64,000 nucleotides of DNA, taken from assembly GCA_014193315.1 (NCBI GenBank), contig BJHS01000004.1, positions 15,153 to 79,152 on the forward strand. Reading direction: 5' to 3'. The notes under the pieces were generated by a model. It did no database searches and was not told the DNA's origin. It saw nothing but the letters and a program-made list of their open reading frames with translations. Within the stretch, counting starts at the first letter, position 1. Every line of letters begins with the position of its first letter. The DNA comes from Verrucomicrobiota bacterium (GTDB taxonomy: Bacteria; Verrucomicrobiota; Verrucomicrobiia; Opitutales; UBA953). Positions 44,345 to 62,187 of this stretch are shown piece by piece. The position numbers and the translations under genes are program-made.

Positions 44345-45262
44345 ATGACCAGCCACGTTCCCGTCCTGCTTGAGGAGTGCCTCGCGCTCCTTGACCCGCG
44401 GGACGGGCGTGCTTACTTGGATTGCACCTTCGGCGGTGGCGGGCACACCGCGGCGATCCTGGATCGCGCCCCCGGCTGTACCGTCGACGCCCTCGATCGC
44501 GACCCCGCGGCCGCCGACCGGGCGGCCCCGTTGCTGGCCCGACACACCGCGCGCCTGCGGTTCCATACCGAGAACTTCCGTGACCTCGACCGCGTCGCCG
44601 GTGACTTCGATGGCGTCCTGATGGACATCGGCGTCTCCTCGTTTCAGCTGGACGAAGCGGACCGGGGTTTCTCCTTCCGCCACGACGCGCCGAACGACAT
44701 GCGCATGGACACCCGCTCCGGCCGCAGCGCCGCCGAGTTCCTCGAGCGCGCCGACCGGCAGGACCTGGTCCGGGCCGTCCGCGATTACGGCGAGGAGCCG
44801 CGCTGGCACCGGGTAATCACCGCCATCGAGCAGGCCCGGGGAACCGGGCGCCTCGCCCGCACCGCCGCGTTCGCGGCGCTGGTCGCCGAGGCGGCCCCGC
44901 CGGCGCCGGGCCCGCGCGGCGCGCATCCCGCCACCCGTACCTTCCAAGGGGTCCGCATCGCGGTGAACGACGAGCTCGGGGCGCTCGCCGAGGCCTTGCC
45001 CAAGGCGTTCGCCAAACTCACCACCGGCGGCGTGCTCGCGGTCATCTCCTTCCACTCGCTCGAGGACCGGATGGTCAAGCGCTACATGAACGGTGTGGCC
45101 GGTCGCCCGGTCGACCGCGACGACAACACCCTCCAGGACGACCGCGTCAAGCGCGCCGACCTCCTCACCCGCAAGGCGGTCCAGCCCTCGGACGCCGAAC
45201 AAGCACGCAACCCCCGCAGCCGGTCCGCCCGCCTGCGCGCCGTCCGGAGGATCGCCGCATGA
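44345..45262 (+). CDS. rsmH: 16S rRNA (cytosine-N4)-methyltransferase
   Basis: [68 protein letters not shown]. Confidence 0.95.
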
Positions 45263-45642
45263 GCCAGCGCCGCCTCCTCACGTGGTTCTTCCTCGTCGCG
45301 ACCTTCTTCGTCGCGGCCGTCGGGACGATCAACGTCATCCGCCTCCGCATCCGCGGGGACGCCGTCGGCATGCAGATCCAGCGCCATGAACGCGCCTCCG
45401 CCGAGACCAAGAAGGAACTCGACAGCCTCAAGCGTAAGCGCGACCAAGGGCTCGACACCCTGCAGCTCATCCAGCGGGTTGGCGAGGACTTCAAACCCCC
45501 GACGCCCGAGCGCATCCTGTGGGTCCGACCTTATCCCGCGGCGCCCGCCACGGTCCCCCTCCTCACCCAGAGCCCGCGGACCGCGGCGCTCGATATCGCG
45601 TTCCGCCCCGCTGCGGAGCAGGGAGGAAAGAGCCCGCGATGA
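45259..45642 (+). CDS. FtsL-like small divisome membrane protein
   Basis: 127 aa, N-terminal TM then coiled-coil; position between rsmH and ftsI. Confidence 0.65.
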
Positions 45643-47408
45643 CCCTGCCCCACGCCAGCCGAATGCGCTACCGTTCGCTGGCTTGGGTCGTGTCCGCCTG
45701 CTTTCTGGCCGTGCTCACCCGGCTGGTCTGGCTGCATTGGGTGGATGCGCCCGAGCTGCGTGCCGAGGCGATGCAGGCCCGTCGGGTCCGGCAGGAACTG
45801 CCGTGCCGCCGGGGCGAGATCCGCGACGCGCAGGATAACCTCCTGGCCGTCTCGGAGGATGTCTGGGACATCGGCGTCGACCCCGTCTCCCTGGACAAGA
45901 AGGACCTCGCCCGTACCGCCGAGGTGGCCGTCGCGCTCGGGGCCCCGCTGCTCAAGGTGATGGAGGCTTTCAACCCGCCCCTGCGGCTCGATGGCGAAGG
46001 CGTCGAGCGCAAGGTTCGTTGGGTTGTCCTCGCCCGGGAATGCGGCGAGGAGACGGTCAAGCGGATGAAGGCCCTGAATATCAAGGCGCTGCGGGCGGAG
46101 CTCAAGTACCGGCGCAGTTACCCCAAGAACGCCCTCGCGGCCCATGTGCTGGGCTTCGTCAACAAGGAGGGCGAGCCTGCCTCCGGGATCGAGCGCGTGA
46201 TGCACTCGCTGCTTTCCGGCCAGAAAGGCTGGATCGAATCCGAGCGTGACGGCAAGCACCGGGAGATCGCGAGCATTCGCATCCGCGAAGTGGCTCCGGT
46301 CGACGGTAGCAACGTGGTCCTCACCCTCAACAGCCTGGTGCAGAAGACGTGCGAGGACGCCCTCGCGGCCGCCGCCGCGCGCTACAACCCCAAGGGGGGC
46401 ATCATCATCGTGAGCGAGCCGCGCACCGGCCGCATCCTCGGGCTGGCCAACTGGCCCACCTTCGACCTCAACCTTTTCTGGGACGCGAAGGCCGCGCCGA
46501 TGGATAGCCAGCGTAACCGGGCGGTCTCCGACGTCTACGAGCCGGGTTCCGTGTTCAAGATCGTCTCTATCGCCGGGGCGTTCGAGGAGCATCTGATTAC
46601 GCCGAACTCCGTCTACGACTGCGGCGCGACGCAGGTCCCCTACAAGGGGCGCATGGTCTCCTTGCCCGCGGATTCCCATGCGCTCGGCGTGGTCGATATC
46701 CGCACGATCGTGCGCGAGTCCTCCAACCGCGGCACCGTGCAGGTCGGCATGCTTTACGCGGAGCGCCAGGGCGAGGACCGGTTCTTCGGTCTGATCAAGT
46801 CCTTCGGTTTCGGTGCGCCGTCCGGACTGATCACCGGCGCCGAGGTCCCCGGCCTGCTCATCTCGCCGCAGTCGAACCAGTGGGCTTCCGCCATCTCCCG
46901 CATCCCGATGGGCCATTCGGTCAGCGTCACCGCGATGCAGATGCACTACGCGATGTCGGTCATCGCCGCGGACGGGCTCCTGATGCAGCCGCAGCTCGTG
47001 CTGCGCGTCGAGGATCCCAAGACCCGCCAGGTCGTGCTCGCCTACCCGCCGCGCTCCCGCGGCCGGGCCATCAGCGCCCGCACCGCGGGCGAGGTCGCCA
47101 CGTTGTTACGCGCGGTCTGCGGCAAGGGCGGCACCGCGCCGATCGCCGACATCCCGGGCTACGAGGTCGCGGGCAAGACGGGCACCACCCAGAAGATCAT
47201 CAACGGCAAGTATTCGACGACGCACCACGTGGCTTCCTTCGCCGGTTTCTTCCCCGTGGGCGACCCGCGCCTGGCCATCACCGTCATCATCGACGAACCC
47301 CAGGGCGAGGGCATCGCCTACGGCGGCAAGGTCTCCGCCCCGATCTTCCGCGAGGTCGCGGAGAAATGTATCCGTTGGCTGGACCTCCCGCCCGTGAGCC
47401 CCCGATGA
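45639..47408 (+). CDS. ftsI: Penicillin-binding protein / FtsI transpeptidase
   Basis: SxxK in PGSVFKIVSI, SSN in ESSNRGT, KTG in VAGKTGTTQK. Confidence 0.92.
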   Translation: MTLPHASRMRYRSLAWVVSACFLAVLTRLVWLHWVDAPELRAEAMQARRVRQELPCRRGEIRDAQDNLLAVSEDVWDIGVDPVSLDKKDLARTAEVAVALGAPLLKVMEAFNPPLRLDGEGVERKVRWVVLARECGEETVKRMKALNIKALRAELKYRRSYPKNALAAHVLGFVNKEGEPASGIERVMHSLLSGQKGWIESERDGKHREIASIRIREVAPVDGSNVVLTLNSLVQKTCEDALAAAAARYNPKGGIIIVSEPRTGRILGLANWPTFDLNLFWDAKAAPMDSQRNRAVSDVYEPGSVFKIVSIAGAFEEHLITPNSVYDCGATQVPYKGRMVSLPADSHALGVVDIRTIVRESSNRGTVQVGMLYAERQGEDRFFGLIKSFGFGAPSGLITGAEVPGLLISPQSNQWASAISRIPMGHSVSVTAMQMHYAMSVIAADGLLMQPQLVLRVEDPKTRQVVLAYPPRSRGRAISARTAGEVATLLRAVCGKGGTAPIADIPGYEVAGKTGTTQKIINGKYSTTHHVASFAGFFPVGDPRLAITVIIDEPQGEGIAYGGKVSAPIFREVAEKCIRWLDLPPVSPR

Positions 47409-48925
47409 CCCCGCCCCCCGCGATGCCCCTCCCCGCGATGGAACGCCCGACTTTCCAGTCCTTGCTCCAAGGCCTGCCCTTGCTGGGTCGGTCCGGTGAT
47501 TGGCATGCGCGCGTGAACTGCGTCGTCACCGATAGCCGCCGCATCATCCCCGGGGCCTTATTCTTCGCCTTGCCGGGTCGCCGCGCGGACGGCCATGCCT
47601 TTCTCGACGACGCCATCGCGCGCGGCGCGGCCGCCATCGTCTCGGGCCAACCGGTGTCCGGATTGCCCGCCGTCGCGGCCGCTCAGGTCGCCGACCCGCG
47701 GCGGGTACTCGCCGAGGTCGCCCGCCGCTTCCACGGCCACCCCGAGCAGGCGCTCCGCCTCGTGGGCGTGACCGGGACCAATGGGAAGACCACCGTCTCG
47801 ACGCTATTGCGTCATCTCCTCCAGGAGGGCGGGGAATCGTGGGGCCTCGTCGGCACGGTCCGCTACCACCTCGGTCGCCGGTCGATTCCGTCTTTTAAGA
47901 CGACGCCGGAGTCGGCCGACCTCGCGGGTTTCTTCCGGCAGATGGCGGACGCCGGCTGCGTGGGCGCTTGTCTGGAGGTCAGCTCACACGCGTTGCACCA
48001 GGATCGCGTGCACGGTTTCCGGTTCGAGGTGGCGGCCTTCACGAACTTGACCCGCGATCACGTCGACTACCATGGCGACCTCTCGAGCTACCTGGACGCC
48101 AAGACCGCGCTCTTCGACGGCCGCACCGGGGAAGCCCCGGGCGTGGCCGTGGTCAACGTGGACGACCCGAGCGGGCGCGTGCTCGCCGAGGCTTGCCGCC
48201 GCCGCGGCCCGACCCTCACGTTCGGCCTCGCCGCGGACGCCGACCTGCGGGCGACGGATCTCGCGCTCGACACCGCTGGGGCGGCTTTTGCTGTCCGCTG
48301 GCAGGGACGCACCCAGCGCTTCACCTCGGCTTTGCCCGGCGATTACAACGTCTCGAACGTGCTTTGCACCCTCGCGATGGCCGCCGCCCTGGGCCGCGAC
48401 CCGCTCGCGCTCGCGCCGGCGCTGGCATCCTTCCCCGGCGTCCCGGGTCGCATGGAACGCGTCGAGGCCGGCCAGGCCTTCCCCGTCTTCGTCGACTACG
48501 CGCACACCGACGACGCCCTCCGCAACGCGTTGCGCATGCTGCGCGCGATCACGCCGGGCCGCGTCCTCTGCGTCTTCGGTTGCGGGGGCGATCGTGATCG
48601 CGGGAAGCGTCCGGCGATGACCCGGGCGGTCGCCGACCTCGCCCACGGGTCGTGGGCCACGGCGGACAACCCGCGCAAGGAGAGTCTGGACCGGATCTTC
48701 GCCGACATGCGCGGCGACTTGGGCCCGCTGCCGACCGTGGATTTCGTGCCCGATCGCCGCGATGCCATCGGGCGCGCGCTGGCCGCCGCCCGCCCGGGCG
48801 ATTGCGTCGTGATCGCCGGCAAAGGGCACGAGACGACCCAGGAATTCGCCGACACCGTGGTGCCGTTCGACGACCGTCAGGTGGTCCGCGAGATTCTCGA
48901 AGCCAGGAGGGGCGCTTCCGCGTGA
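47405..48925 (+). CDS. murE: UDP-MurNAc-tripeptide ligase, meso-DAP type
   Basis: GVTGTNGKTTVSTLLRHLL, EVSSHALHQDRV, DNPR motif in TADNPRKES. Confidence 0.93.
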   Translation: MTPPPAMPLPAMERPTFQSLLQGLPLLGRSGDWHARVNCVVTDSRRIIPGALFFALPGRRADGHAFLDDAIARGAAAIVSGQPVSGLPAVAAAQVADPRRVLAEVARRFHGHPEQALRLVGVTGTNGKTTVSTLLRHLLQEGGESWGLVGTVRYHLGRRSIPSFKTTPESADLAGFFRQMADAGCVGACLEVSSHALHQDRVHGFRFEVAAFTNLTRDHVDYHGDLSSYLDAKTALFDGRTGEAPGVAVVNVDDPSGRVLAEACRRRGPTLTFGLAADADLRATDLALDTAGAAFAVRWQGRTQRFTSALPGDYNVSNVLCTLAMAAALGRDPLALAPALASFPGVPGRMERVEAGQAFPVFVDYAHTDDALRNALRMLRAITPGRVLCVFGCGGDRDRGKRPAMTRAVADLAHGSWATADNPRKESLDRIFADMRGDLGPLPTVDFVPDRRDAIGRALAAARPGDCVVIAGKGHETTQEFADTVVPFDDRQVVREILEARRGASA

Positions 48926-50292
48926 TGCCCACCTTCGCCGCCGCCGACCTCGCCGCCTGGACCGCCGGGCGCTGGACGACCGCGCCCGCCGCCGTCTCCG
49001 GCTTCGGCACGGACACGCGGGCCTTGCGCCCCGGCGACGCCTTTGTCGCGATCCGCACGGACCGTCGCGACGGCCACGATTTCCTGCCCGCCGCCCGCGC
49101 CCAAGGCGCCGCTTGCGCCTTCGTCAGCCACGCGGTGGCCGATGCACTGCCCCAGCTCGTCGTCGCCGATGCGGCCGCCGCCTTGCGCGCCGCCGCCGCC
49201 GCCTGGCGCCGACGTTTCACCGGTCCCGTCATCGGCGTGACCGGCAGCGTCGGCAAGACCTCCACGAAGGACCTGCTCGGGGCGCTGCTCGGCCCGACCG
49301 CCTTCGTCACCGAAGCCAACCTCAATAACCTGCTGGGTGTCCCGCTGATGCTCCTGCGCCTGGAGCCCGCTCGGCACCGTTTCGCCGTCATCGAGGCCGG
49401 GATGAGCGTGCCGGGAGAACTCGGCGTGAGCGCGGAAGTCATCCGGCCCGACCTCGCCATCGTCACCGCCGTCGCCCCGGTCCATCTCGAAGGCGTGGGT
49501 TCGCTCGCCGCGGTCGCACGCGAGAAGGCCACCTTGGTGGCGGCCTTGGCCGAAGCGGGTCGCGGGATCCTGCCGGCCGCCTTGCTGGTCTGGCCCGAGT
49601 TCGCCGCGCTCGCGAGACGCTGCATCGCGGTGCGTTTCGCGGGTGAGCCCGCCCCGGCCGTCCCGCCCGCCCGCTTGGTGGAAGCGCGCCTCGGCGAGGA
49701 AGCCGGGCGTCGCCTCCTCTTCCTTGATGGCGAAGTTTTCCCGCTTGGGGCGGTTTCCGACGGCCTCGCCCGCAACGCCGCTTTGGCGATCGTCGCCGCC
49801 CGGGAAGTCGGCGCCGACTTGCCGGCCCTGCGCGCGGCGCTTCTCGCCTGGTCGCCGCCGGTGGGGCGGGGCAGCCTGCATGTGGTCGGGGCCCAGACTT
49901 TCTACGTCGACTGCTACAACTCCAGCCCGGCGTCGCTGCTGGACGCGGCGCGCTGTTTTGACCGCCTCAGCGCTTCGTCCGCGCGCCCGCGTCTCTGGGT
50001 CGTCGGCGGCATGGCCGAACTGGGCGCAGATTCCGCCGCCCTGCACCGTGGCTGCGCCGCCGAGTTGCCCGTGCGCCCCCAGGACACGGTCGTCGCCTTC
50101 GGCGGCGATGCCGCCCAGGTGCTCGCGGGCTTGCCCGCTGGTCCGGGACCCCGCGTCGTCGCCACCTCCCTCGAGGCCGTGCGCGCCGCCGTCGCCGCGC
50201 ACCCGGGCTTCGTCTTCGTCAAGGGAAGCCGCTCCTTCGCCTTGGAGCGCGCCTTGCCCGCCGCGCTCGCCGCTCACCTGACGTTCCACTAG
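48925..50292 (+). CDS. murF: UDP-MurNAc-tripeptide--D-Ala-D-Ala ligase
   Basis: GVTGSVGKTSTKDLLGALL, TEANLNNLLGVPLMLL, DCYNSSPASL. Confidence 0.92.
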   Translation: MPTFAAADLAAWTAGRWTTAPAAVSGFGTDTRALRPGDAFVAIRTDRRDGHDFLPAARAQGAACAFVSHAVADALPQLVVADAAAALRAAAAAWRRRFTGPVIGVTGSVGKTSTKDLLGALLGPTAFVTEANLNNLLGVPLMLLRLEPARHRFAVIEAGMSVPGELGVSAEVIRPDLAIVTAVAPVHLEGVGSLAAVAREKATLVAALAEAGRGILPAALLVWPEFAALARRCIAVRFAGEPAPAVPPARLVEARLGEEAGRRLLFLDGEVFPLGAVSDGLARNAALAIVAAREVGADLPALRAALLAWSPPVGRGSLHVVGAQTFYVDCYNSSPASLLDAARCFDRLSASSARPRLWVVGGMAELGADSAALHRGCAAELPVRPQDTVVAFGGDAAQVLAGLPAGPGPRVVATSLEAVRAAVAAHPGFVFVKGSRSFALERALPAALAAHLTFH

Positions 50293-50295
50293 GAC

Positions 50296-51408
50296 ATGCT
50301 TTACCTGCTCAAGAATCTCGAATCCATCTGGGGACCGTTCCGGCTCTTCGAGTATATCTCCGTCCGCGCGATTCTCGCCGGCTTCACCGCGTTGGCCTTG
50401 GGGATGCTTTTCTCCGGCCCCATCATCCGCGCGCTGTCCCGCCTGCGCCAGCCCGAGCGCTCGAAGGAACTCATGGGCGAGCTCGCCAAGGAAGGCGGCA
50501 AGGTACCGACGATGGGCGGTCTGCTCATCGGCGCGGCCATGATCCCCGCGGTGCTCCTCTGGGCCCGTCCCAATGTCCTCGTCCTCGCCTCCCTCTGGTC
50601 CCTGCTGGGCATGGGCTTGGTCGGTTTCATCGACGATTGGCTGAAGGTCCGTCACGGCAGTTCCGACGGCGTCTCGGCCCGCCAGAAACTCGCCGGCCAG
50701 GCCCTCGTCGCGTTGGTGGCCATGGGGATCGTGCTGCTCGACCCCGCCTACCGTGACAGCTTTTGTGAGGTCTGGTTGCCGGTGCTGAAAGCGCCGGTCT
50801 GGTCGGTCAAGTCGGCCGGCCTACCGTTCCTGGCCTGCGCCGGGGTCGCCGGGCTCTTCTTCATCCTCGTCTGTGTTGGTGCCTCGAACGCCGTCAACCT
50901 CACCGACGGCCTCGACGGCCTCGCGATCGGCTGCGTCCTGATCACCACGCTCATTTTCGGGGGGGTCGCCTACCTCGCGGGTCATGCCGTCTTCGCCCAT
51001 TACCTGAACATCAGCCTGGTCGCCGGCGCCGGTGAACTGGCCGTGTTCTGCGCCGCGCTTGTCGGCGGCGGGGTCGTCTTCCTGTGGCACAACGCGGCCC
51101 CGGCCGAAATCTACATGGGCGACGTAGGCGCGCTCGGTATCGGCGGCGCGCTCGGCGCGGTGGCCTGCCTCATGCATCAACCGTTCCTGCTGGCCATCGT
51201 GGGCGGCGTCTTCGTGCTGGAGGCCCTCTCCGTCTTGCTCCAAGTGGGTTACTTCAAGTACACCGGCGGTCGGCGGTTGTTCCTGATGACGCCCATCCAT
51301 CACCATTTCCAGAAAATGGGCTGGGCCTCGACCAAGGTCGTCGCCCGCTTCTGGATTCTCTCCTTACTTTTCGGCCTGCTCGGCCTCCTGTCTCTCAAGC
51401 TGCGATGA
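50296..51408 (+). CDS. mraY: Phospho-N-acetylmuramoyl-pentapeptide-transferase
   Basis: GGKVPTMGGLLI, FIDDWLKVRHGSSDGVSARQK, SNAVNLTDGLDGLA, TPIHHHFQKMGW. Confidence 0.96.
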   Translation: MLYLLKNLESIWGPFRLFEYISVRAILAGFTALALGMLFSGPIIRALSRLRQPERSKELMGELAKEGGKVPTMGGLLIGAAMIPAVLLWARPNVLVLASLWSLLGMGLVGFIDDWLKVRHGSSDGVSARQKLAGQALVALVAMGIVLLDPAYRDSFCEVWLPVLKAPVWSVKSAGLPFLACAGVAGLFFILVCVGASNAVNLTDGLDGLAIGCVLITTLIFGGVAYLAGHAVFAHYLNISLVAGAGELAVFCAALVGGGVVFLWHNAAPAEIYMGDVGALGIGGALGAVACLMHQPFLLAIVGGVFVLEALSVLLQVGYFKYTGGRRLFLMTPIHHHFQKMGWASTKVVARFWILSLLFGLLGLLSLKLR

Positions 51409-52679
51409 GCGACTTCCCCGACAGCCTCAAGCGACGCCTGGTGCGCCCGGCCGCCATCCTCGGCGACGGGGTCAGCGGCCGCGCGGTCGCGGCGACCCTC
51501 GGGGCCGCGGGTTTCGCCTCGGTCATCTACGATGCGCAAGGCGGCAATCCGGTCTTCGGTCCCGACGAAGCCGCGCGCCACGACCTGCTCGTCTACAGCC
51601 CCGGCTTCCCCCAGTCGCACCCGTGGCTCCTCGCCGCCCGTCGCGCTGGGTTGCATTGCCTCACCGAGCTGGATTTCGGGGCGATGCTCTGGACGGGCGT
51701 CGCCATCGCCATCACCGGCACCAACGGCAAGACCACGCTCACCGAGTTCCTCTCGTTCGCCCACAAGCGAGCCGGGCAGGACGCCATCGCCTGCGGGAAC
51801 GTCGGTCTCCCGTTCACCGCCCTGCACGCCACGGTTTCCAACGGGTCCTTCCTGGCGGTGGTCGAGGTAAGCTCCTTTCAAGCGGAGGACTTGCGGCACT
51901 TCTCGCCCGAGGCGGTGCTCTGGACTAATTTCGACGAGGATCACCTCGATCGCCATGGCGAGCTCGAAAGTTATTTCCGGGCGAAGTTCCGCCTCATCGA
52001 GCGCATGCCGCCCGGCGGCGTCCTCGTCGTCGGCGAATCGGTGGTCGCGGCCGCCCGCGACTTCGGGATCGAACTTCCGCCCGACGCGTTGGTCGCGACG
52101 CGCGCGGAGGTCGCCACCACCATCCCCGCGGGTTCCGCTTTTGAGGCCTGGCCGCAACGGGAGAACTGGGCCCTCGCCGTCAAGTATTGGCAGGCCAAGG
52201 GGCTGCCGTTCCGGCACCTCGAGGAATCGGCGCGGCTTTTTCGTCCCGCCCCGCACCGCTTGCGCAAGGTCGCCGAAGCCCAGGGGGTCGAGTATTGGAA
52301 CGACTCGAAGGGGACGAACTTCCATGCGGTGTACGCCGCGCTTGAGCAGTTCGACGTGCCGGTCCGCTGGATCGGCGGGGGCAAGTGGAAGGGCGGGGAC
52401 CTCCGCCGCTTCGCCGAACGGCTCGCCCCGCGCATCGAGGCCGCCTACCTCATCGGCGAGACGGGACCCGAGTTGCAACGTCACTTCGCGGAGCTGGGTC
52501 GTCCGGCCCGCTGCTTCGCCGGACTCCAGGATGCCGTCGTCGCCGCCGGCAAGGAGTCGCACGGACCCACCGCCATCCTGCTCAGCCCTGGCTTCGCCAG
52601 TTTCGACCAGTTCCGCGGTTACGCCGAACGCGGTACCGTCTTCGAGCGCGCGGCCCTCGCCCTCGCCCACCGGGCCTGA
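51405..52679 (+). CDS. murD: UDP-N-acetylmuramoylalanine--D-glutamate ligase
   Basis: AITGTNGKTTLTEFLSF, VVEVSSFQAEDL, WNDSKGTNFHAVYAAL. Confidence 0.94.
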   Translation: MSDFPDSLKRRLVRPAAILGDGVSGRAVAATLGAAGFASVIYDAQGGNPVFGPDEAARHDLLVYSPGFPQSHPWLLAARRAGLHCLTELDFGAMLWTGVAIAITGTNGKTTLTEFLSFAHKRAGQDAIACGNVGLPFTALHATVSNGSFLAVVEVSSFQAEDLRHFSPEAVLWTNFDEDHLDRHGELESYFRAKFRLIERMPPGGVLVVGESVVAAARDFGIELPPDALVATRAEVATTIPAGSAFEAWPQRENWALAVKYWQAKGLPFRHLEESARLFRPAPHRLRKVAEAQGVEYWNDSKGTNFHAVYAALEQFDVPVRWIGGGKWKGGDLRRFAERLAPRIEAAYLIGETGPELQRHFAELGRPARCFAGLQDAVVAAGKESHGPTAILLSPGFASFDQFRGYAERGTVFERAALALAHRA

Positions 52680-52717
52680 TTTTCACCAATAACCCAAACA
52701 CCCAACCCATACCACCC

Positions 52718-53314
52718 ATGCGTCCACTCATCACCGTCACCGCCGTCGTGCTCTTGCACCTTTGCGTCATCGCCGTCCTTGTCGGCGTCAATGGCTGCCG
52801 TAGCACCACCGGGCTCGAGACCGACGGCGAACCGGTCGCCTACGCCTCCGGCGGTCGCGTCGGCGTCGCCACCCCGGCGCCGGTCGCGGGCCTCCCGCTC
52901 TCGACCCTCGCGCCCGCGCCGGTGAGCACGACCACCCCCCGGCTGGCCACGCCCGCCCCGACGAAAGTCACCCCGATCACCGCGGTTGGCGCGGGCGGCG
53001 TCCACGTCGTCGTCAAGGGCGAGGGCCTCTTCCTCGTCGCGGCCCGCGAGAAGGTCAGCGTCAAGGACCTCTGTGCGGCGAACGGCCTGACGTTGAACGC
53101 CAACCTGCAGCCGGGTCAGAAGCTGAAGATTCCGGGCCCGGGCACCGCCGCCGGCAAGACCACCGTTTCCCCGCCGCGCTCGGCCCCTGGCGCCAAGCCC
53201 GCGACCTCGCCGGCGCCGGCGATCGATTTCGCCCCGCTGAAGCTTGCCCCGGTGGGTACCCAGCCCGCCGCGCCGGTGTCCGACGCCCCGGCGGCCGTCC
53301 CCGCCAAGAAGTAA
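52718..53314 (+). CDS. LysM-domain envelope (lipo)protein within dcw
   Basis: N-terminal hydrophobic segment ending VNGC; HVVVKGEGLFLVAAREKVSVKDLCAANGLTLNANLQPGQKLKIPG. Confidence 0.75.
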   Translation: MRPLITVTAVVLLHLCVIAVLVGVNGCRSTTGLETDGEPVAYASGGRVGVATPAPVAGLPLSTLAPAPVSTTTPRLATPAPTKVTPITAVGAGGVHVVVKGEGLFLVAAREKVSVKDLCAANGLTLNANLQPGQKLKIPGPGTAAGKTTVSPPRSAPGAKPATSPAPAIDFAPLKLAPVGTQPAAPVSDAPAAVPAKK

Positions 53315-53335
53315 CCCTCCGTTCGGTCCGCCCGC

Positions 53336-54550
53336 ATGATCATCAAGGTCAAACAGGAACCCCCCGTCGCCCTCGCGGGCGCCGCCGTGGGGATCGTCCT
53401 GTTAGCCTTGGGGTTGGCCGTGTTCGGGCTCGTGGTGCAGTACAGCGCGGGCATCTCGCTCTCCGCGAGCAACCGCACGGCGGCCTTCGAGCGTCAGTTC
53501 ATCTTCCTAATTCCCGCGCTCCTGGGGGGCTTTCTTTGCTATCGCCTCAACCTCGACCGGGTGCGCGAGTACCGCTGGTGGATCCTCGGCGGCGCGTGCT
53601 TCGCGATGCTCGCGGCCCGCGTCCCCGGTATCGGGGTCTCGGTCAACGGCTCCTGGCGCTGGATCGATCTCGGCCTGATCCGCCTGCAGGCCTCGGACCT
53701 CGGTAAGCTTGCGCTCGTCTTGGTGCTCGCGGACCTGTTGGCGCGCATGCAACGCCATACCCTCGGGGCGAAGTTCCGCATCTTCCAATTCTCCTCCCGC
53801 GAGCCCTATGTGTTCACGCCCGCGGGTTGGCGGGATTTCCGCGAAGGTTTCCTCAAGCCGGGCGCGGTGGTCCTCGGCATCGCCGCCTTCATCGCGCTGG
53901 GACCCGACCTCGGCACTATCCTGCTCTGCGTCGCCGTGGGTGGTATCATGATGTTCATCTCCGGGGTCCGCTGGAGCTACGTGCTGCCCACCCTGCTGAT
54001 CGGCGCCACCGCCCTGACCATCCTAATCCTCAACTGGCCCAATCGTCTCCGCCGGTTCGTATCCTTCATCGACCCGTGGCAGAATCGCGGCGACGAGGCT
54101 TACCAACTGTTCGAAGGCATGATGGGGTTTGGCGTCGGCGGGTTGACCGGCAAGGGCGCGGGCTTCGGTCTGCAGAGCCGCGCTTACCTTCCCGAGGCCC
54201 ATACCGACTTCGTGCTGGCCGGTATCGGCGAGGAATATGGGCTGATCGCGACCAGCCTCGTCGCCGCGACCTACCTCGCGATTTTCTACCTGGGCTACCG
54301 CGCCTTGCGCCAGTCGGCGGACCTCTACCGGCTCAACGTCGGCCTGGGGGCGTTGCTCTTTCTGGTGGTCCAGGCGTTGGTCAACATGGGCGTGGTGACG
54401 GGCTTGCTGCCGACCAAGGGCATCTCGCTCCCGTTCCTCAGTTACGGCGGTACGAACCTCGTGATCATGGCTTGCATGGTCGGGCTCGTCCTCAACTGCA
54501 TCCGCGCGGCGGCGCAGCCGGTCTTCACGCCCAGGGAGGCCCGCGCATGA
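53336..54550 (+). CDS. ftsW: FtsW-type SEDS glycosyltransferase
   Basis: ALGPDLGTILL, GLQSRAYLPEAHTDFVLAGIGEEYGL, LPFLSYGGTNLVIM. Confidence 0.95.
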   Translation: MIIKVKQEPPVALAGAAVGIVLLALGLAVFGLVVQYSAGISLSASNRTAAFERQFIFLIPALLGGFLCYRLNLDRVREYRWWILGGACFAMLAARVPGIGVSVNGSWRWIDLGLIRLQASDLGKLALVLVLADLLARMQRHTLGAKFRIFQFSSREPYVFTPAGWRDFREGFLKPGAVVLGIAAFIALGPDLGTILLCVAVGGIMMFISGVRWSYVLPTLLIGATALTILILNWPNRLRRFVSFIDPWQNRGDEAYQLFEGMMGFGVGGLTGKGAGFGLQSRAYLPEAHTDFVLAGIGEEYGLIATSLVAATYLAIFYLGYRALRQSADLYRLNVGLGALLFLVVQALVNMGVVTGLLPTKGISLPFLSYGGTNLVIMACMVGLVLNCIRAAAQPVFTPREARA

Positions 54551-55641
54551 ATCGGGTGCTGCTCGCCTGCGGCGGGACCGGCGGCCACCTCGCCCCCGGG
54601 ATCGCGTTGGCGCAGCGGTTGACCGATGAAGGCCACGAGTGCCTCTTGATCGTGAGCAGCAAAGCCGTCGATGCGCGGATGACGGCCAACTACCCGCGTC
54701 TGCGCTTCGTTCCCGGTCAGGGCCGCGGTTTTGGGCCGGGCTTCCTGGCCAAGCTACGCTTCTTCCCGGCCTTGCTGGGGGCGGTGTGGTCCGCGCGCAC
54801 GTTGCTCCGCGCTTTCAAGCCCGACGCTTTGGTTTGTTTCGGCGGTTTCATGAGTGTCGGCCCAGCCCTCGCCGCCCGGTTGGGCGGCATCCCGGTCCTC
54901 GTGCACGAGGCCAACCGTCGTCCGGGCAAGGCGGTGCGGTTGATCGCCCGTTTCGCCCAATCGATCCATCTACCGGCGGGCGTGCGTCTGGCCGGCCTGC
55001 CGGCGGGTCGTCAGCATGATTCCGGTTACCCGGTCCGCGCCGAGATGCGCCCGCTCGCGAAAGAACTCGCCCGGCGCACGCTCGGGTTCCCGTCCACGGG
55101 GCGCTTGCTCCTCTTCACCGGTGGCAGTCAAGGCGCGGCTTCGCTCAACCGCTGGGTCGAGTCCCACCTGGACGAACTCGCCGCGCGCGGGATCCATGCG
55201 CTCTGCCTGACCGGCCCCGGGGGCCGTGATGAACGCGTGGAGCGGGCGGGTGTCGTCATCCATTTCCTGCCGTTTTGCCACCAGATGGCGACGGCCTATT
55301 CTGCAGCCGACCTTGCGGTCACCCGTGCCGGTGCTGGCACGTTGGCGGAACTCGCGACCTGTCGGACGGCGGCCATTCTGGTCCCGTTCCCGCATGCCGC
55401 CGACGACCACCAGACCGCGAATGCGCTGCAGGCCGCCGAAAGCGGCGCCGCGATCCTCCTGCCCGAGCGCGAACTCGGGCGTCTGGGAGAGGTCGCCTTC
55501 GGGTGTCTCGCTGACAACGCCGCGCTTGCGGCGATGCGCGATGCGCTGGCGCTCGCCGACGCGGCCAACCATTGGGAGGAGCTGGCCCGCGAGACCATCG
55601 AGTTAGCCCAAGCCCGCGCCCGGAGGGTCGCCTTGGCATGA
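54547..55641 (+). CDS. murG: UDP-GlcNAc transferase MurG
   Basis: LLACGGTGGHLAPGIALAQRL, GGFMSVGPALAARLGGIPVLVHEANRRPGKA, TGGSQGAASLN. Confidence 0.95.
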   Translation: MNRVLLACGGTGGHLAPGIALAQRLTDEGHECLLIVSSKAVDARMTANYPRLRFVPGQGRGFGPGFLAKLRFFPALLGAVWSARTLLRAFKPDALVCFGGFMSVGPALAARLGGIPVLVHEANRRPGKAVRLIARFAQSIHLPAGVRLAGLPAGRQHDSGYPVRAEMRPLAKELARRTLGFPSTGRLLLFTGGSQGAASLNRWVESHLDELAARGIHALCLTGPGGRDERVERAGVVIHFLPFCHQMATAYSAADLAVTRAGAGTLAELATCRTAAILVPFPHAADDHQTANALQAAESGAAILLPERELGRLGEVAFGCLADNAALAAMRDALALADAANHWEELARETIELAQARARRVALA

Positions 55642-57926
55642 GCGTCGCGGCCGCCACCTCCGCTTGGATGCTCGGCGCCTGCGGCATGGGCGTCGGCCCG
55701 CTCGCCATCTACCTGAAAGGGGAGGGGTGCGACGTCTCCGGCTGGGATGACGCCACCGGTAGTCCCATGGAAGTGCACTTGGCCAACGCCGAGATCCCCT
55801 TGTTGCGCGACCCCTGGGCCGCTGGGCGCTTCCCGCTGGTCGTCGGCCGTTCCAGCGCGGTCAAGCCGGGCCACCCCGCCCTCGACCTCGCGACGGCCAA
55901 GGGGGTCCGTCAATTGCGCCGCGGGGAACTGCTCGCCGAGCGCGTCGCCCACCGCCGTTTTGTCGCGGTTTGTGGAAGCCATGGCAAGACCACCACCTGC
56001 GGGATGATTGTCGCTGCGCTTGCGTCCGCCGGGGCGGACTTCGGTTATGTGCTCGGGGGGCTTTTTCGCGATCCCGCCTTCCCGCCCGCGCGCGCCTCCG
56101 CCACCTCGCCTTGGGTCGTCGCGGAGGTCGACGAGAGCGATGGCACCATCGGCGCCTTTTCCCCGGATGTCACGGTGGCGGTGAACCTCGATTGGGATCA
56201 TCCCGACTACTACCGCGACGAGGCCGCGCTCGAAGGCGTGTTTCGCGCGTTGTTTGAGCGCACCCGGACGGCCGTCGTGATTCCCGCCGGTAACGAACGG
56301 TTGGAGCGGCTCACCGCCGGCCTGAAAGTTCCCGTGCTCCGCGTCGGCCTCGAGGGGGATTACCGGGCTCGACCCGTCGCCGGCGACCAGGCGACCTCGG
56401 TCTTGGAACTGGGCGGCCGTTTCCCCGCCGGGCCGGTGACCTTGCCCGTCGCCGGGACGTTCAATCGCGCCAATGCCGCGATGGCCCTGTCGGTGGCCCA
56501 TCTTGTCACGGGTGGGTTGGCCGCGGAGCCGATGGCACGCTGGCGGGGCATTCGCCGCCGGCAGGACGTCCTCTTCGAAACCCAAGGCTTGCGCGTGCTC
56601 GCCGATTACGCCCATCACCCGACGGAAATCGGGGCGCTACTGCAGTGGGTCCGCGAGACGCACCTCGGTCGATTGGTCGTCGTCTTCCAGCCCCACCGGC
56701 ATACTCGGACGCGCCAGTATGCGACGGAATTCCGCCAGGCGTTGAACGTGGCCGACTACGCGCTCGTGCTCCCCGTATACGCCGCCGGGGAACCCGCGCT
56801 CGAAGGGGGCGGCTCCGACGCCGTGGTCGCCGGCTCGGCCCATCGCCTCGTGGCCGATCGCCGCGAGCTGGCGCCCTTGCTCGACGGGCTTTGCGCCGGG
56901 CAGGACACCGTGGTCGCCTTCGTGGGGGCCGGCGACATCGAGCGCGACGCCGAAGGTTACGCCAAATCATGGCGCCGCCGCGGCGCCGAAAGCCTCTCGC
57001 GCGACCTACCCGAACTCGTCGCCGGGAAACTTTCCCCCGCCGCCAGTTTGCGCGCCAATGAGCCGCTGGGGCGACGCACCACCCTCGGGGTCGGCGGGGT
57101 GGCGCGTTGGTATGCGGAACCGGCGACCGTCGATGACGTCGTGACTTTGCTTCGCGCGGCGGCCGAACTTGACCTCCGCTATTTCGTCCTCGGTCGCGGC
57201 TCGAACCTGCTCGTGCCGGACGAAGGGTATGACGGGCTGATCATCCACCTCGACACCGACCACTGGGGGCGGCTGGAAGCCCTCGGTGAAGGCCGGGTCC
57301 GCGTCGGTGGGGGCGTCCGGCTCAAGGAGCTCTGCGGTTGGGCCGCCCGGGAGGGCCTGACCGGCTTCGAGTTCCTCGAAGGCATCCCGGGCACCGTCGG
57401 GGGTTCCTTGCGCATGAACGCCGGCGCGATGGGCGGTTGGATCTTCGACGTCGTGGAATCCATCGAATGGCTTTCGCCCCACGGTCGGGTCCGGGCCGCC
57501 CGCCGCGATTGCTTCGACGCCCTCTACCGCGATTGCCCGCAATTGCACGGCGGCGTGGTGCTTTCGGCCGTGCTGCGGGCGACGGGGAGCGCCGAGCCCG
57601 AGACCATCCGCCTCCGCATGGACGAGATGGCGACCCGCCGCCGCGCCTCGCAGCCGCGCGAAGCCAGCGCCGGCTGCGTCTTCCGTAATCCCGAAGGGGA
57701 TAAGGCTGGCCGGCTCATCGACCAGGCGTCCCTGAAAGGCCGGTCGGTCGGTGCCGCCGCGGTCTCCCCCGTCCACGCTAATTTCCTCGTCAACGGTGGC
57801 GGCGCGACGTCCGCCGACTTCTTGGTGCTCATGCGGGAGGTCCGGGCGGGAGTCCGGGCGGACACCGGCGTCGAACTGCAACCGGAGATCATCGCGCTCG
57901 GCCGCGAATGGAAGGACCTGCTATGA
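55638..57926 (+). CDS. murC/murB: MurC-MurB fusion protein (MurB part begins about 57045)
   Basis: MurC: CGSHGKTTTCGMI, VDESDGTI, YAHHPTEI; MurB: RRTTLGVGGVARWYAEPATVDDV, VLGRGSNLLVPDEGYDG, EFLEGIPGTVGGSLRMNAGAMG, GCVFRNPEGDKAGRLIDQ. Confidence 0.95.
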   Translation: MSVAAATSAWMLGACGMGVGPLAIYLKGEGCDVSGWDDATGSPMEVHLANAEIPLLRDPWAAGRFPLVVGRSSAVKPGHPALDLATAKGVRQLRRGELLAERVAHRRFVAVCGSHGKTTTCGMIVAALASAGADFGYVLGGLFRDPAFPPARASATSPWVVAEVDESDGTIGAFSPDVTVAVNLDWDHPDYYRDEAALEGVFRALFERTRTAVVIPAGNERLERLTAGLKVPVLRVGLEGDYRARPVAGDQATSVLELGGRFPAGPVTLPVAGTFNRANAAMALSVAHLVTGGLAAEPMARWRGIRRRQDVLFETQGLRVLADYAHHPTEIGALLQWVRETHLGRLVVVFQPHRHTRTRQYATEFRQALNVADYALVLPVYAAGEPALEGGGSDAVVAGSAHRLVADRRELAPLLDGLCAGQDTVVAFVGAGDIERDAEGYAKSWRRRGAESLSRDLPELVAGKLSPAASLRANEPLGRRTTLGVGGVARWYAEPATVDDVVTLLRAAAELDLRYFVLGRGSNLLVPDEGYDGLIIHLDTDHWGRLEALGEGRVRVGGGVRLKELCGWAAREGLTGFEFLEGIPGTVGGSLRMNAGAMGGWIFDVVESIEWLSPHGRVRAARRDCFDALYRDCPQLHGGVVLSAVLRATGSAEPETIRLRMDEMATRRRASQPREASAGCVFRNPEGDKAGRLIDQASLKGRSVGAAAVSPVHANFLVNGGGATSADFLVLMREVRAGVRADTGVELQPEIIALGREWKDLL

Positions 57927-58846
57927 GCCCCGAACGCGAAATCGTCGTGCTATGCGGCGCCGTCTCGCCTGAACGCGACGTTTCGCTACGCTCTGGCCGG
58001 GCCGTCGCCGGGGTGCTGCCGGGCTCCCGACTCGTCGAACTCGACGTCAATGCGCTGCCCGAGTGGCTGAACGGCGAACGCCACGTCGTGCTGTCGGTCA
58101 TCCATGGCGACTACGGCGAGGACGGGGCGGTGCAGGCCGACCTGGCCGCCCGCGGGATCCCCTTTGCCGGTTGCGATGCCGCAGCCAGCCGCCTGTGCAT
58201 CGATAAGGTGGCGACCAAGCAGGCGATGCGCGCCGCCGGCGTGCCCGCCATCCCGGAGGTCGCCTTCACCGGCGAAGCCCGGCCAGCGGCCGCTGCGCTC
58301 GTCCGGGAACTCGGGCCCCGCGTGGTCCTGAAGCCCGCGGACAAAGGGAGCAGCGTCGGGCTCTTCGTCTGTGCGGACGAGGCCGAGGTCGCCGCCGCCC
58401 TGGCGGCAATCCCCGCGACCGGTCGCTGGATGGCCGAACGGCGCCTGAACGGTCGCGAACTTTCGGTCGGCTTGCTCGAGGGTCGCGCGATGGGGGTGGT
58501 TGAGATCGTCCCCCTGACCGGGGTCTATGATTACCGGAATAAATACACCAAGGGTTCCGCGGAGTACCGTTTTCCGGCCCCGCTCGAGGCGCCGACCACC
58601 GCGGCCATCCAACGGGCGGCCGAAGCCCTCTTCGCCGCCGGCGGCTGCCGCGACTTCGCGCGCGCCGATGTCTTCCTCGAGCCCGATGGAAACTTCTATT
58701 TCCTCGAGATCAACACCATGCCGGGCATGACCGAGACCAGCCTCATGCCCAAGAGCGCCGCCTGCGTCGGCCTGGACTTCTCCGCCCTCGTGCGCCGCAT
58801 GCTGGCTCCGGCTCTGCAACGCGCCCGCGGCGTCCGCCTCACCTGA
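57923..58846 (+). CDS. ddl: D-alanine--D-alanine ligase
   Basis: SVIHGDYGEDGAVQADLAARGIPFAGCDAAAS, VLKPADKGSSVGL, FLEINTMPGMTETSLMPK. Confidence 0.94.
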   Translation: MSPEREIVVLCGAVSPERDVSLRSGRAVAGVLPGSRLVELDVNALPEWLNGERHVVLSVIHGDYGEDGAVQADLAARGIPFAGCDAAASRLCIDKVATKQAMRAAGVPAIPEVAFTGEARPAAAALVRELGPRVVLKPADKGSSVGLFVCADEAEVAAALAAIPATGRWMAERRLNGRELSVGLLEGRAMGVVEIVPLTGVYDYRNKYTKGSAEYRFPAPLEAPTTAAIQRAAEALFAAGGCRDFARADVFLEPDGNFYFLEINTMPGMTETSLMPKSAACVGLDFSALVRRMLAPALQRARGVRLT

Positions 58847-58847
58847 T

Positions 58848-59819
58848 ATGAGTATCTTCCGTCGACTTTTCGGTAAGCGCCCTGAGACCTTCCCCGGCCC
58901 GAAGGACCGCGACTGGCGCGCCTTGGTCCCGCAGGATATCAACCGCGTGCCCGGCGACGCCATCGGCCGGCGGCGGGCCGTCCGGTCGCGCCTGCCCGTG
59001 GTGCTGGCCGGCCTCTTCTTCGCGACCCTCGGCGGTTTGGTCTGGTATGTGATCGACGAGGGCGCGGGCATCCCTGCCGCGACCGCCGGCGGCATCAAGT
59101 TCAAGACCGATGGCCTGCTCGGCACGGATTATGTCCGCAAGGTCTTGCAGGCCCACCCGGAAGGCGCGGGGCGCGATGTGCGTTCGATCAAGGAGGAATT
59201 GCAAAAAGACAACCAGGTCCTCGCCGCCGATGTCAGTCGCGGGATGGACGGCGTGATGAATGTCCGTCTCACCGAGCGCAAGGCCGTCGCCCGCGTCGTC
59301 GTCACGCCGCCGACCGGCCCGATGGTCGTCCGGTTGATGGACCCGGCGGGCGTGACCTTCGCGGGCACCGGTTATCCCCCCCCCGCGGTGCGCGGGCTGC
59401 CCGAGATCGTCAACTACCGCTCGACCGGCTCGGGCGACGCGATGGTGATCGAAGGCGCCGAGATCGCCGGCCCGTTCCTCGCCACGGCGATGAGCGAACG
59501 CTACCGGGCCTATTACAACCAGTGGGCCGCGCTCTCCCTCGCCGATTGTTTCGGCGAGCATGAGGACGCCCCCGGCTCGAGCCTGCGGGTGTTGCTGCGC
59601 CCAGGCAGCCAGCCGGCCGACCGACCGGCGCTGACCGAGATCGTCTTCTCGACCGCCAAGTGGCGGGCGGAGTTCGGCATCCTCAAGGCCCTCGACCTCG
59701 AGGCCTTGCTGCGCCGACCGGACGCCACCGCCGCCGCCTACGTGCTCAAACTCTCGATCCAGAATCGCACCAACTCCAAGCCCGTCCCCGAACCCCGCCT
59801 CGTCCCTGTCACCCGATGA
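58848..59819 (+). CDS. ftsQ: FtsQ/DivIB-like divisome protein
   Basis: Cytoplasmic N-terminus then single TM; position between ddl and ftsA; weak sequence conservation. Confidence 0.65.
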   Translation: MSIFRRLFGKRPETFPGPKDRDWRALVPQDINRVPGDAIGRRRAVRSRLPVVLAGLFFATLGGLVWYVIDEGAGIPAATAGGIKFKTDGLLGTDYVRKVLQAHPEGAGRDVRSIKEELQKDNQVLAADVSRGMDGVMNVRLTERKAVARVVVTPPTGPMVVRLMDPAGVTFAGTGYPPPAVRGLPEIVNYRSTGSGDAMVIEGAEIAGPFLATAMSERYRAYYNQWAALSLADCFGEHEDAPGSSLRVLLRPGSQPADRPALTEIVFSTAKWRAEFGILKALDLEALLRRPDATAAAYVLKLSIQNRTNSKPVPEPRLVPVTR

Positions 59820-61057
59820 AACCCAAGTCCAAGCCCCTTCCTTCGCTCATCGCCGTCATCGACGTCGGGACCCATAAGACCGTCGCCCTCGTCGGCCAAC
59901 TGATCGACGGCAAGGCGCGGATGCTGAGCTACTCCGAGCGGCGCACCGACGGGGTCGTCAAGGGGACCGTGACCGACCTCGAGAAATTGCAGCGTTGCGT
60001 CCATGAAGTCGTCAACGACGTCGAGCGCGGTGCAGGGCGGGCGTTGGAGGAAATCTACCTTTCCATGTCCGGGCCGGCGGCCGAGGGCGAGCGCGTCAAG
60101 GGTATCATCTCCGTCCCCGCCGCCGACAATCGCGTCACCCGCCAGGACCTAAGCGACGCCGTGGCCTCGGCCAAGCGGTTGGAACCTCCGGCGGGTCGCG
60201 CGACGATTCTCTACATGCGGCAGCCGACCATCCTGGACAACCGTCCGGTGGTGAACCCGGTCGGGATGACCGGCCGACGGCTCGAGGTCTTGTTCTGGCG
60301 CGTCACGATGGACGAGGCGAACCTGCGGTTGCGCGTCGGGATGGTGAACGCGATGAGCATGATGCTCCGGGATTTCATCCTTGCTTCCCATGCCGCGGCT
60401 TGCGCCGTCGCGACCGAGGCGGAGAAGCAGGGCGGGGTGCTCCTCATCGACATGGGCGCCGGGACCACGGATTGGATCCTCTACTACAAGGAGCATATCC
60501 TTTGCGCCGGCTCGATCCCGGTTGGCGGCGAGCACCTCACGAACGACATCAGCGTCGCGTTGCGCGTAAGCCGGGAGACGGCGGAGGACCTCAAGCAACG
60601 CTTCGCTTCCGGGGTTCATCGGGAGAACGACCTCAACCAAACCATCTGGAAGGACGGCGACCGCGGTTTGGGCGACCAGCAGTTCAACCGTGGCACCATC
60701 ACGAAAGTCAGTTCGTTGCGGTACCAGGAGACCCTAGAGTTCGTGCGCAAGGACATCCTGCGCCAGCTGGACCAGATCTTCCCGGAGCACCCGACCAAGC
60801 TGGACCAGCACCTGCTGCCTTCCGGCGTCATCCTTACCGGCGGCTCGGCTAATCTCCAGGATGCCACCGAGGCCGTCCAACTCGTGCTCGGGCTGCCGGC
60901 GCGCGTCGGGGTGCCCGCGTTCGAGGTCGAATCTTTCCGCAAGCCTGAGTACGCCGGGGTCGTCGGGATGATGACGGCGGCGATCACGGACGCGCCGGTA
61001 CCGGTGCGTCGCCCGCGAGGTTTCCTCGCCACGCTCCGCGACCTCTTCCGTTTCTAA
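59816..61057 (+). CDS. ftsA: Cell division protein FtsA
   Basis: IAVIDVGTHKTVALVGQL, DMGAGTTDWILYYKEH, GGEHLTNDISVALRVSRETAEDLK, LTGGSANLQD. Confidence 0.93.
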   Translation: MKPKSKPLPSLIAVIDVGTHKTVALVGQLIDGKARMLSYSERRTDGVVKGTVTDLEKLQRCVHEVVNDVERGAGRALEEIYLSMSGPAAEGERVKGIISVPAADNRVTRQDLSDAVASAKRLEPPAGRATILYMRQPTILDNRPVVNPVGMTGRRLEVLFWRVTMDEANLRLRVGMVNAMSMMLRDFILASHAAACAVATEAEKQGGVLLIDMGAGTTDWILYYKEHILCAGSIPVGGEHLTNDISVALRVSRETAEDLKQRFASGVHRENDLNQTIWKDGDRGLGDQQFNRGTITKVSSLRYQETLEFVRKDILRQLDQIFPEHPTKLDQHLLPSGVILTGGSANLQDATEAVQLVLGLPARVGVPAFEVESFRKPEYAGVVGMMTAAITDAPVPVRRPRGFLATLRDLFRF

Positions 61058-61059
61058 GC

Positions 61060-62187
61060 ATGGAACGCGCCCCTTCCATCCTCTTGATCGGACTAGGCGG
61101 CGCGGGCTGCTCCATGGTGTCGCGTCTCGCCCCGGCCTTGCCGGCGGAAGTGCAGGTGCTCCGGGTGGATACAGACGCGCGCTCCGTCGCCGAGGGTGGC
61201 GCCGGCGCGGCCTTGCAAGTCGGCCGCGCCCAGACCCGCGGGATGGGGACGGGGGGCGAGCCCGCCCTCGGGGCCGTCGCCGCCGAAGCGGAAGAAGCCG
61301 CCTTGCGGCGTGCCTGCATCGGCCCCGCCTTGGTCGTCTTGGTCACGGGACTCGGCGGTGGCACGGGCAGCGGAGCCGCGCCCGTGGTCGCGCGGGTCGC
61401 CGCGGAAGCGGGCGCTACCGTGCTCGCCTTCGCCACCATGCCTTTCTCCCATGAAGGGGAACGCCGCATGCGTCAGGCCAACGAAGGTGCCATCGCGCTC
61501 GGGCAGAAGGCCCATGGTCTGGTGTTCGTGCATAACGACCTTCTGCTGCAGCAAGTTTCCAACGAGGCACCGCTCTCGGAGACATTCGCGGCCGCGGACG
61601 CCTGGGTCGGTGGCGCCCTGCGCGCGCTGGCGGCGGCGTTCGAGCCGGGGGCCTTGGTGCCCGTCGACCCGGTCGCCTTGCGGAGCATTCTGGCCAGCCC
61701 GGGCTCACCGACCCTCTTCGCCTATGGTGTCGGGAGCGGGGCGGGGGCGGCCCTGCAGGCGGCGCACGCCGCGGGGAGTTGCCCGCTCGCCCATGCACCG
61801 GGAGCGGTCACCAAGGTCGCCGCGCTTTTCGTGTACGTCGCGGGCGGTCCGACGATGACTTCTAATGACGCCTTCGAGGCGGTCGGCGCCGTTCGACAGC
61901 GTTTCGGAGGGGAGACCACCACGCTGCTCTGCGCTCGGATCGTCCCGGACTTCGGCGACCGCGTCGAAGTCTCCGTCCTAGGCGCGTCCTTGCCGTTCCC
62001 CAAGCCTGCGCCCAAGGCGCGCAAAGGCGCCAAGGCGGCCGATGCGGCGCAACCCTTGTTCGGTTTCGCCACCGAGGAGACGATACGACGCGGTCTGTTC
62101 GGCGGCACGCCCATGACCTTCATCGAAGGCCAGGACGTCGACGTCCCGACCTACATCCGCAAGGCCGTCCGCTTGCCGGGCGGCTGA
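61060..62187 (+). CDS. ftsZ: Divergent FtsZ
   Basis: LLIGLGGAGCSMVSRL, VDTDARS, tubulin signature GLGGGTGSGAAPVVA, C-terminal DVPTYIRKA resembling the DIPAFLRK tail; atypical T7 loop. Confidence 0.9.
   Translation: MERAPSILLIGLGGAGCSMVSRLAPALPAEVQVLRVDTDARSVAEGGAGAALQVGRAQTRGMGTGGEPALGAVAAEAEEAALRRACIGPALVVLVTGLGGGTGSGAAPVVARVAAEAGATVLAFATMPFSHEGERRMRQANEGAIALGQKAHGLVFVHNDLLLQQVSNEAPLSETFAAADAWVGGALRALAAAFEPGALVPVDPVALRSILASPGSPTLFAYGVGSGAGAALQAAHAAGSCPLAHAPGAVTKVAALFVYVAGGPTMTSNDAFEAVGAVRQRFGGETTTLLCARIVPDFGDRVEVSVLGASLPFPKPAPKARKGAKAADAAQPLFGFATEETIRRGLFGGTPMTFIEGQDVDVPTYIRKAVRLPGG

Follow-up and report, generated by a model that had tools for sequence, protein, structure and literature searches.

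The gene that directly follows ftsA in a dcw cluster of a Verrucomicrobiota bacterium (order Opitutales) encodes an FtsZ with only one of the two acidic residues of the T7 synergy loop. This raises the question of whether such a protein can be a working GTPase of the divisome and, if so, by which residues. The roles of the T7 aspartates are known so far mostly from single mutants in a few model species, where either loss is crippling. In structures of Staphylococcus aureus FtsZ (SaFtsZ), D210 (E. coli D209) swings in the transition state and positions the attacking water, D213 and the T3 residue G72 hold the pre-catalytic water, and R143 (E. coli R142) assists by supplying charge and bridging to the gamma-phosphate (PMC8936486). 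Moreover, N208 and Q48 hold K+ between the subunits, N44 and D46 bind Mg2+ waters, and the mutants D213N and N208L show no assembly (PMC8936486). In E. coli, the D212A mutant retains about 7% of the GTPase activity of the wild type, a value that PMC8142252 cites from earlier work, yet together with the wild type it produces bands of filaments at division sites (PMC4383033). E. coli D212G can support division with a suppressor mutation and fails to complement without suppressors (PMC5405962).

The divergence of verrucomicrobial FtsZ is already known (PMC9871819; PMC1845146). In Verrucomicrobium spinosum, TraDIS shows that ftsZ is essential (PMC12283558), and a paper of 2007 terms the FtsZ of this species canonical without naming the T7 loop (PMC1845146). 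A partial literature search found no paper on the T7 loop of verrucomicrobial FtsZ or on alternative retention of its acids, nor any biochemical study of an FtsZ from this order. The present analysis concerns a stretch of 64,000 nucleotides, called the window, and its FtsZ. Residues compared between species carry E. coli numbers (D209, D212) and those of the window protein its own (D203, A206).

Identity and genomic place of the FtsZ

The window protein is an FtsZ by its fold, signature, gene context and tail. The tubulin/FtsZ GTPase domain (PF00091) scores 102.5 bits against a cut-off of 33, and the best matches among solved structures are all FtsZ, with E-values down to 3e-43, about 30% identity and 152 bits to one of them. 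The AlphaFold2 model reaches a TM-score of up to 0.93 against solved FtsZ. All 50 of the 50 PDB fold matches listed are FtsZ, with target-normalised TM-scores mostly around 0.9 (S. aureus FtsZ also about 0.9). The TIGR00065 equivalog is the sole significant NCBIfam match (E 4.6e-56) and stays below its cut-off of 295.2 bits. FtsZ_C (PF12327) scores 22.8 bits, under its gathering score of 27 (E 1.1e-4), and despite this shortfall the C-terminal subdomain is still seen in the predicted fold. The protein is regarded as a divergent FtsZ because both scores fall under curated cut-offs. A paralogue of the BtubA/B, TubZ, CetZ or Tubulin_2 type was rejected, since sequence and fold searches return FtsZ and the locus lies in the dcw cluster.

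The features of the locus are listed in Table 1. A sequence-only reading of the window had described the gene as standing at its normal place after ftsA and as retaining the GGGTGSG signature and a DVPTYIRKA tail, and these points hold: the two genes are directly adjacent in an intact dcw cluster, and both motifs are present in the translation. Profiles recognise mraW, an ftsI-type PBP, murE, murF, mraY, murD, ftsW, murG, a murC-murB fusion and ddl, and profile searches gave no match for the open reading frame at the ftsQ position. The conserved tail and the adjacency to ftsA are those of an FtsZ, and FtsA binding is predicted. Upstream of the tail runs a linker motif, Q..F.F....RG.F..T....G.D[LV]DVPTY.R[RK] (62050-62180; residues 331-369), in which G345 and F347 are invariant across the window FtsZ and 47 relatives; to our knowledge, it matches no described FtsZ element.

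The source assembly comprises 2.36 Mb in 44 contigs and is 97% complete, and the named near relatives of the bacterium are freshwater Opitutae MAGs. It holds a single PF00091 hit. The second, canonical FtsZ that the sequence-only reading had proposed to look for was searched with Pfam PF00091 and with a profile specific to the order (E<=10), and neither search returned a second FtsZ or tubulin.

Table 1. Features of the ftsZ locus, with positions in the 64,000-nucleotide window
Feature	Position	Strand	Remarks
dcw genes upstream of the ftsQ position	44348..58846	+	Pfam matches; gene order as in the canonical cluster
ftsQ position	58848..59819	+	assigned by gene order alone; no profile match
ftsA	59816..61057	+	TIGR01174 238 bits, exceeds cut-off
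ftsZ	61060..62187	+	375 aa; one copy in the genome; TIGR00065 190.7 bits; AlphaFold2 pLDDT 87.7
T2 loop D37-T-D39-A-R41	61168..61182	+	E. coli Asn43 -> Asp37, Gln47 -> Arg41; Asp45 retained
T3 loop MGTGGE	61243..61260	+	Gly65 = E. coli G71 retained; Glu67 replaces Asn73
Tubulin signature GGGTGSG (T4), residues 99-105	61354..61374	+	from translation and alignment
E132-G-E-R-R136	61453..61467	+	E. coli E138...R142; arginine bridging to gamma-phosphate
T7 synergy loop P201-V-D203-P204-V-A206-L-R208	61660..61683	+	E. coli N207-V-D209-F210-A-D212-V-R214
C-terminal tail DVDVPTYIRKA, FtsA-binding type	62134..62166	+	D361, P363, R367 invariant in 48 relatives

The T7 loop and the remainder of the active site

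The T7 loop of the window protein, PVDPVALR, stands opposite NVDFADVR without any gap, whether aligned to solved FtsZ structures by HMMER or to E. coli FtsZ by MAFFT. The reported substitutions N207P, F210P and D212A with D209 retained are thereby confirmed; A211V and V213L complete the list, and R214 is kept. The strict pattern NxDFxDV holds both acids, and the window, with PVDPVAL, has one of the two. A structure-based alignment that puts an acid at the catalytic position had been named as evidence against an altered site, and such an acid is found at one of the two positions: D203 is acidic and the 212 position is A206. In the AlphaFold2 model, the block 201-210 has a pLDDT of 90 and the helix 204-210 begins immediately after D203, which suggests that T7 would retain its usual geometry.

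Further changes, additional to those observed earlier, lie in T1 to T3: Asn24 is replaced by Ser18 in T1, and Asn43, Gln47 and Asn73 by the residues given in Table 1. Asp45, Gly71, Glu138 and Arg142 are retained. Set against SaFtsZ, the window protein thus keeps the counterparts of D210, G72, R143 and D46 and is without those of D213, N208, Q48 and N44. Whether T6 has lost the acid that contacts guanine (E. coli D187) was considered and set aside. The window protein reads A-D-A and E. coli A-N-D, and the T6 acid of the window protein is placed at the Staphylococcus-type position because the SaFtsZ row of the alignment reads A-D-N. Substitution of Arg41 for the K+ ion is possible in the source species, but part of the genus carries Ser, Ala or Asn at this position, which speaks against it.

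Like the canonical FtsZ of E. coli, S. aureus and K. pneumoniae, the window protein has the common fold, the tubulin signature, D209, R142, D45, an FtsA-type tail and a dcw place after ftsA. Unlike them, it is only about 30% identical, has N207, F210, D212, N43, Q47 and N24 replaced and has lost the K+ site residues.

Conservation in the genus, the order and the phylum

The genus set consists of 33 fetched loci (the window's own, 19 assigned to the same genus and 13 named MAG loci), and their genomes partly overlap. In all 33, positions 209 and 210 are D and P, position 212 is A or V, and position 207 is P, A or S but never N. The D209 and P210 codons differ synonymously among the species. Against other species, dN of ftsZ is 0.07-0.33 and dS about 1-1.9 or saturated; dN is far under dS, and ftsZ is therefore under purifying selection. 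A sequencing error in the T7 region had been raised as a caveat. It is excluded because the PVDPVALR-type loop recurs in all genus loci from different assemblies, and together with the gap-free alignment by two methods this also refutes a frameshift or a misalignment. Nothing speaks in favour of such an artefact, and its probability is negligible.

FtsZ genes were gathered from the order, the class and the phylum, the phylum count covering 145 Verrucomicrobiota genera; the background outside the phylum came from PMC8936486 and five solved FtsZ sequences. Within the order, an acid is present at 209 and absent at 212 in 39 of 43 genera, with a typical loop NLDF[AS][TS]L, so the loss of D212 is a trait of the order. 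Replacement of N207 and F210 is a genus-level change, and it is not unique since similar loops are scattered elsewhere. Across the phylum, the acid is present at 209 only in 61 genera, at 212 only in 47, at both positions in 31 and at neither in 6. Alignment is less secure for the most divergent families, although a filter for gap-free T7, which retained 140 of the 145 genera, made little difference. Thus, the T7 change is not peculiar to this gene: almost the entire order lacks D212, and most of the phylum lacks one or the other T7 acid.

Other positions of the site are kept to different degrees among the 145 genera. D45 (90%), G71 (91%), E138 (98%) and R142 (81%) are largely conserved, and N43 (46%), Q47 (41%) and N207 (43%) are more variable. 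An acid at position 211 was tried as a substitute and is no general replacement, because it occurs in 12 of 46 genera with only the 212 acid and in 4 of 58 with only the 209 acid.

The V. spinosum T7 loop was read from a genome that contains, without mismatch, a primer published for sequencing V. spinosum ftsZ (PMC1845146). This loop, RMGIADLL, is without N207 and D209 and has D212. The FtsZ of the V. spinosum family resembles that of the window in its phylum, its divergence, a dcw cluster with a murC-murB fusion, a single T7 acid and the loss of N207. It differs in that D212 is retained and D209 absent, the mirror image of the window loop, as well as in a long C-terminal extension and in being proven essential.

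Correlated evolution of active-site residues

Models of correlated evolution were used because the genera are not independent of each other. The test covered the 140 genera with a gap-free T7, with an analytic two-state likelihood, on one IQ-TREE tree and five bootstrap trees, all inferred without the T2 and T7 columns. For 209 against 212, the likelihood ratio was 19.3-25.3 over the six trees (p 4e-5 to 7e-4), and on all of them the fitted loss of the second T7 acid was slower than that of the first. As controls, 20 other variable positions were each paired with 209, 212 and 207; the median over these 60 pairs was about 6, and the highest value was 19.2. The number of genera with neither acid was borderline under independence simulated by parametric bootstrap (P 0.05-0.08), and sign tests on independent pairs across strongly supported branches had few pairs only. 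Reciprocal retention of the two acids across the phylum is likely, though not proven.

Moreover, loss of N207 is coupled with loss of N43 on the opposite side of the subunit interface. The likelihood ratio of this pair was 22-30, and N207 was lost at fitted rates of 0.07-0.11 with N43 present versus 1.6-1.95 without it, more than 10-fold faster.

Probable FtsZ-less genomes and additional tubulins

Several observations concern other members of the order and the phylum. Eight small Opitutales genomes (G030, G046, G050, G055, G064, G080, G091 and G092; families f7, f22, f24 and f25) of 0.8-1.0 Mb and 89-95% completeness are probably FtsZ-less makers of peptidoglycan. FtsZ, by Pfam and the order-specific profile, and FtsA above the cut-off were not found in them; each has two FtsW/RodA and MurG, and most have a weak MreB-like hit. 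Family f23 is intermediate, with FtsZ and FtsA both absent (G065), FtsA alone (G078), or FtsA and a partial divergent FtsZ (G047). The partial protein lies at a contig end and has the T7 loop VCNLSDF, and the f23 cases could be contig gaps. In two larger genomes (G039 and G057, 2.7-4.1 Mb), FtsZ and FtsA are absent and MurG gives no strong hit, whereas other members of their genera possess both FtsZ and FtsA; these assemblies most probably lack the dcw contig.

Additional tubulin-like proteins occur as well. Eight loci (L152-L159; families f33, f42, f43, f48, f50 and f54) encode a second protein of 364-398 aa with a weak PF00091 match beside a normal FtsZ, and those that aligned have an STGGGTGNG-type signature and unrecognisable T6 and T7. 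In three genomes (G265, G269 and G282, with locus L202; family f30, genus g142), two to four further tubulin hits score 177-199 bits, in line with Prosthecobacter BtubA/B. The FtsZ of G269 has the T7 loop KLGLDDLT, without D209. Furthermore, G087 carries two FtsZs (L042 and L113), of which the second, with NVGLDDLM, resembles that of another order and points to contamination or transfer.

Mechanism and alternative explanations

The best explanation, to which we give a probability of about 60%, is that the window protein is a working divisome FtsZ with a composite, one-carboxylate GTPase site that is probably slow and K+-independent. We infer a catalytic role for the single T7 carboxylate, D203 (E. 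coli D209), which would act with R136 (R142), D39 (D45) and the T3 backbone. D212 would already have been lost in relatives across the order; in the source genus the Asn207-Gln47 pair, the K+ holder in SaFtsZ, would have gone too, together with Asn43, and the subunit interface would be retuned, not broken. Filaments would form and treadmill, turning over GTP more slowly than E. coli FtsZ does and with little dependence on K+. Judged from the residues, a one-carboxylate site without K+ clamp appears to be the simplest reading.

That one-acid FtsZs work is indicated by V. spinosum, since its FtsZ with RMGIADLL is essential. The loss of D212 seems tolerable because suppressed E. coli D212G strains divide. 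The E. coli mutants D212A and D212G resemble the window protein in that the same carboxylate is missing and D209 is retained; they are impaired laboratory mutants, whereas in the window protein the loss is natural and old and goes with changes in T2 and T7. The altered or slow GTPase proposed from the sequence remains a fair expectation by analogy with the 7% of D212A and with SaFtsZ D213N and N208L, and it would not be peculiar to this gene. A different catalytic partner, the other proposal, is unsupported, as there is no second FtsZ by the searches described and the water-positioning D209 and R142 are retained. Direct transfer of the S. aureus N208L and D213N data would predict a dead protein, which, like the failed complementation by E. 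coli D212G in the absence of suppressors, counts against the explanation given here. In tubulin, T7 activity differs by subunit, and GTP stays unhydrolysed at the interface where the equivalent of D212 (Glu254 of alpha-tubulin) is non-acidic. That interface, however, sits in a heterodimer, whereas the window genome has one FtsZ, in which D209 is still present.

The low activity of E. coli D212A and its bands at division sites could also mean that the window protein binds GTP and makes filaments with minimal hydrolysis, near-static like D212A rings, the turnover of the Z-ring being left to other factors. The additional loss of N207 and Q47 fits with this. We consider it unlikely, as D209, R142 and D45 are retained under purifying selection, a catalytically unused site needs no retention of exactly one acid of two, and Z-ring condensation in B. 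subtilis requires treadmilling. Still less probable is a shift of the catalytic carboxylate from T7 of the top subunit (in trans) to T3 of the bottom one (in cis), where Glu67 stands beside the water-holding glycine. Of the 145 genera, 130 have Asp or Glu at position 73, where E. coli has Asn, and Gly72 of SaFtsZ touches the pre-catalytic water (PMC8936486). However, this acid does not track the T7 loss, because 29 of 30 genera with both T7 acids possess it and so do 93 of 104 with one, equally common in the two groups, and a single T7 acid is also seen in lineages whose residue 73 is Asn.

Relaxed constraint, with the FtsZ of the order decaying towards loss and the T7 changes neutral, would accord with the high divergence of verrucomicrobial FtsZ (PMC9871819) and with the several small-genome families of the order that lack FtsZ and FtsA by profile while retaining FtsW/RodA and MurG. 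The low dN relative to dS and the D209 and P210 invariant in the genus, with codons changed synonymously, argue against neutral decay, and so do the conserved tail, the intact dcw cluster and the essential ftsZ of V. spinosum (PMC12283558). This makes decay the most doubtful of these three alternatives. The one-carboxylate site may also extend beyond the genus: a single T7 carboxylate, either D209 or D212, would suffice in Verrucomicrobiota, with repeated switches between lineages and matching N43/N207 changes at the interface. We advance this wider proposal tentatively, at slightly under even odds.

Significance

If the wider proposal is true, two mirror-image designs of FtsZ GTPase exist in nature within the phylum. 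With mostly one-acid genera and an essential FtsZ in at least one species, the Verrucomicrobiota offer existing proteins in which polymerisation, water positioning and K+ dependence could be told apart. Annotation that treats NxDFxD as a prerequisite for an active FtsZ needs qualifying. Furthermore, the finding bears on the origin of FtsZ-independent division in the neighbouring PVC lineages.
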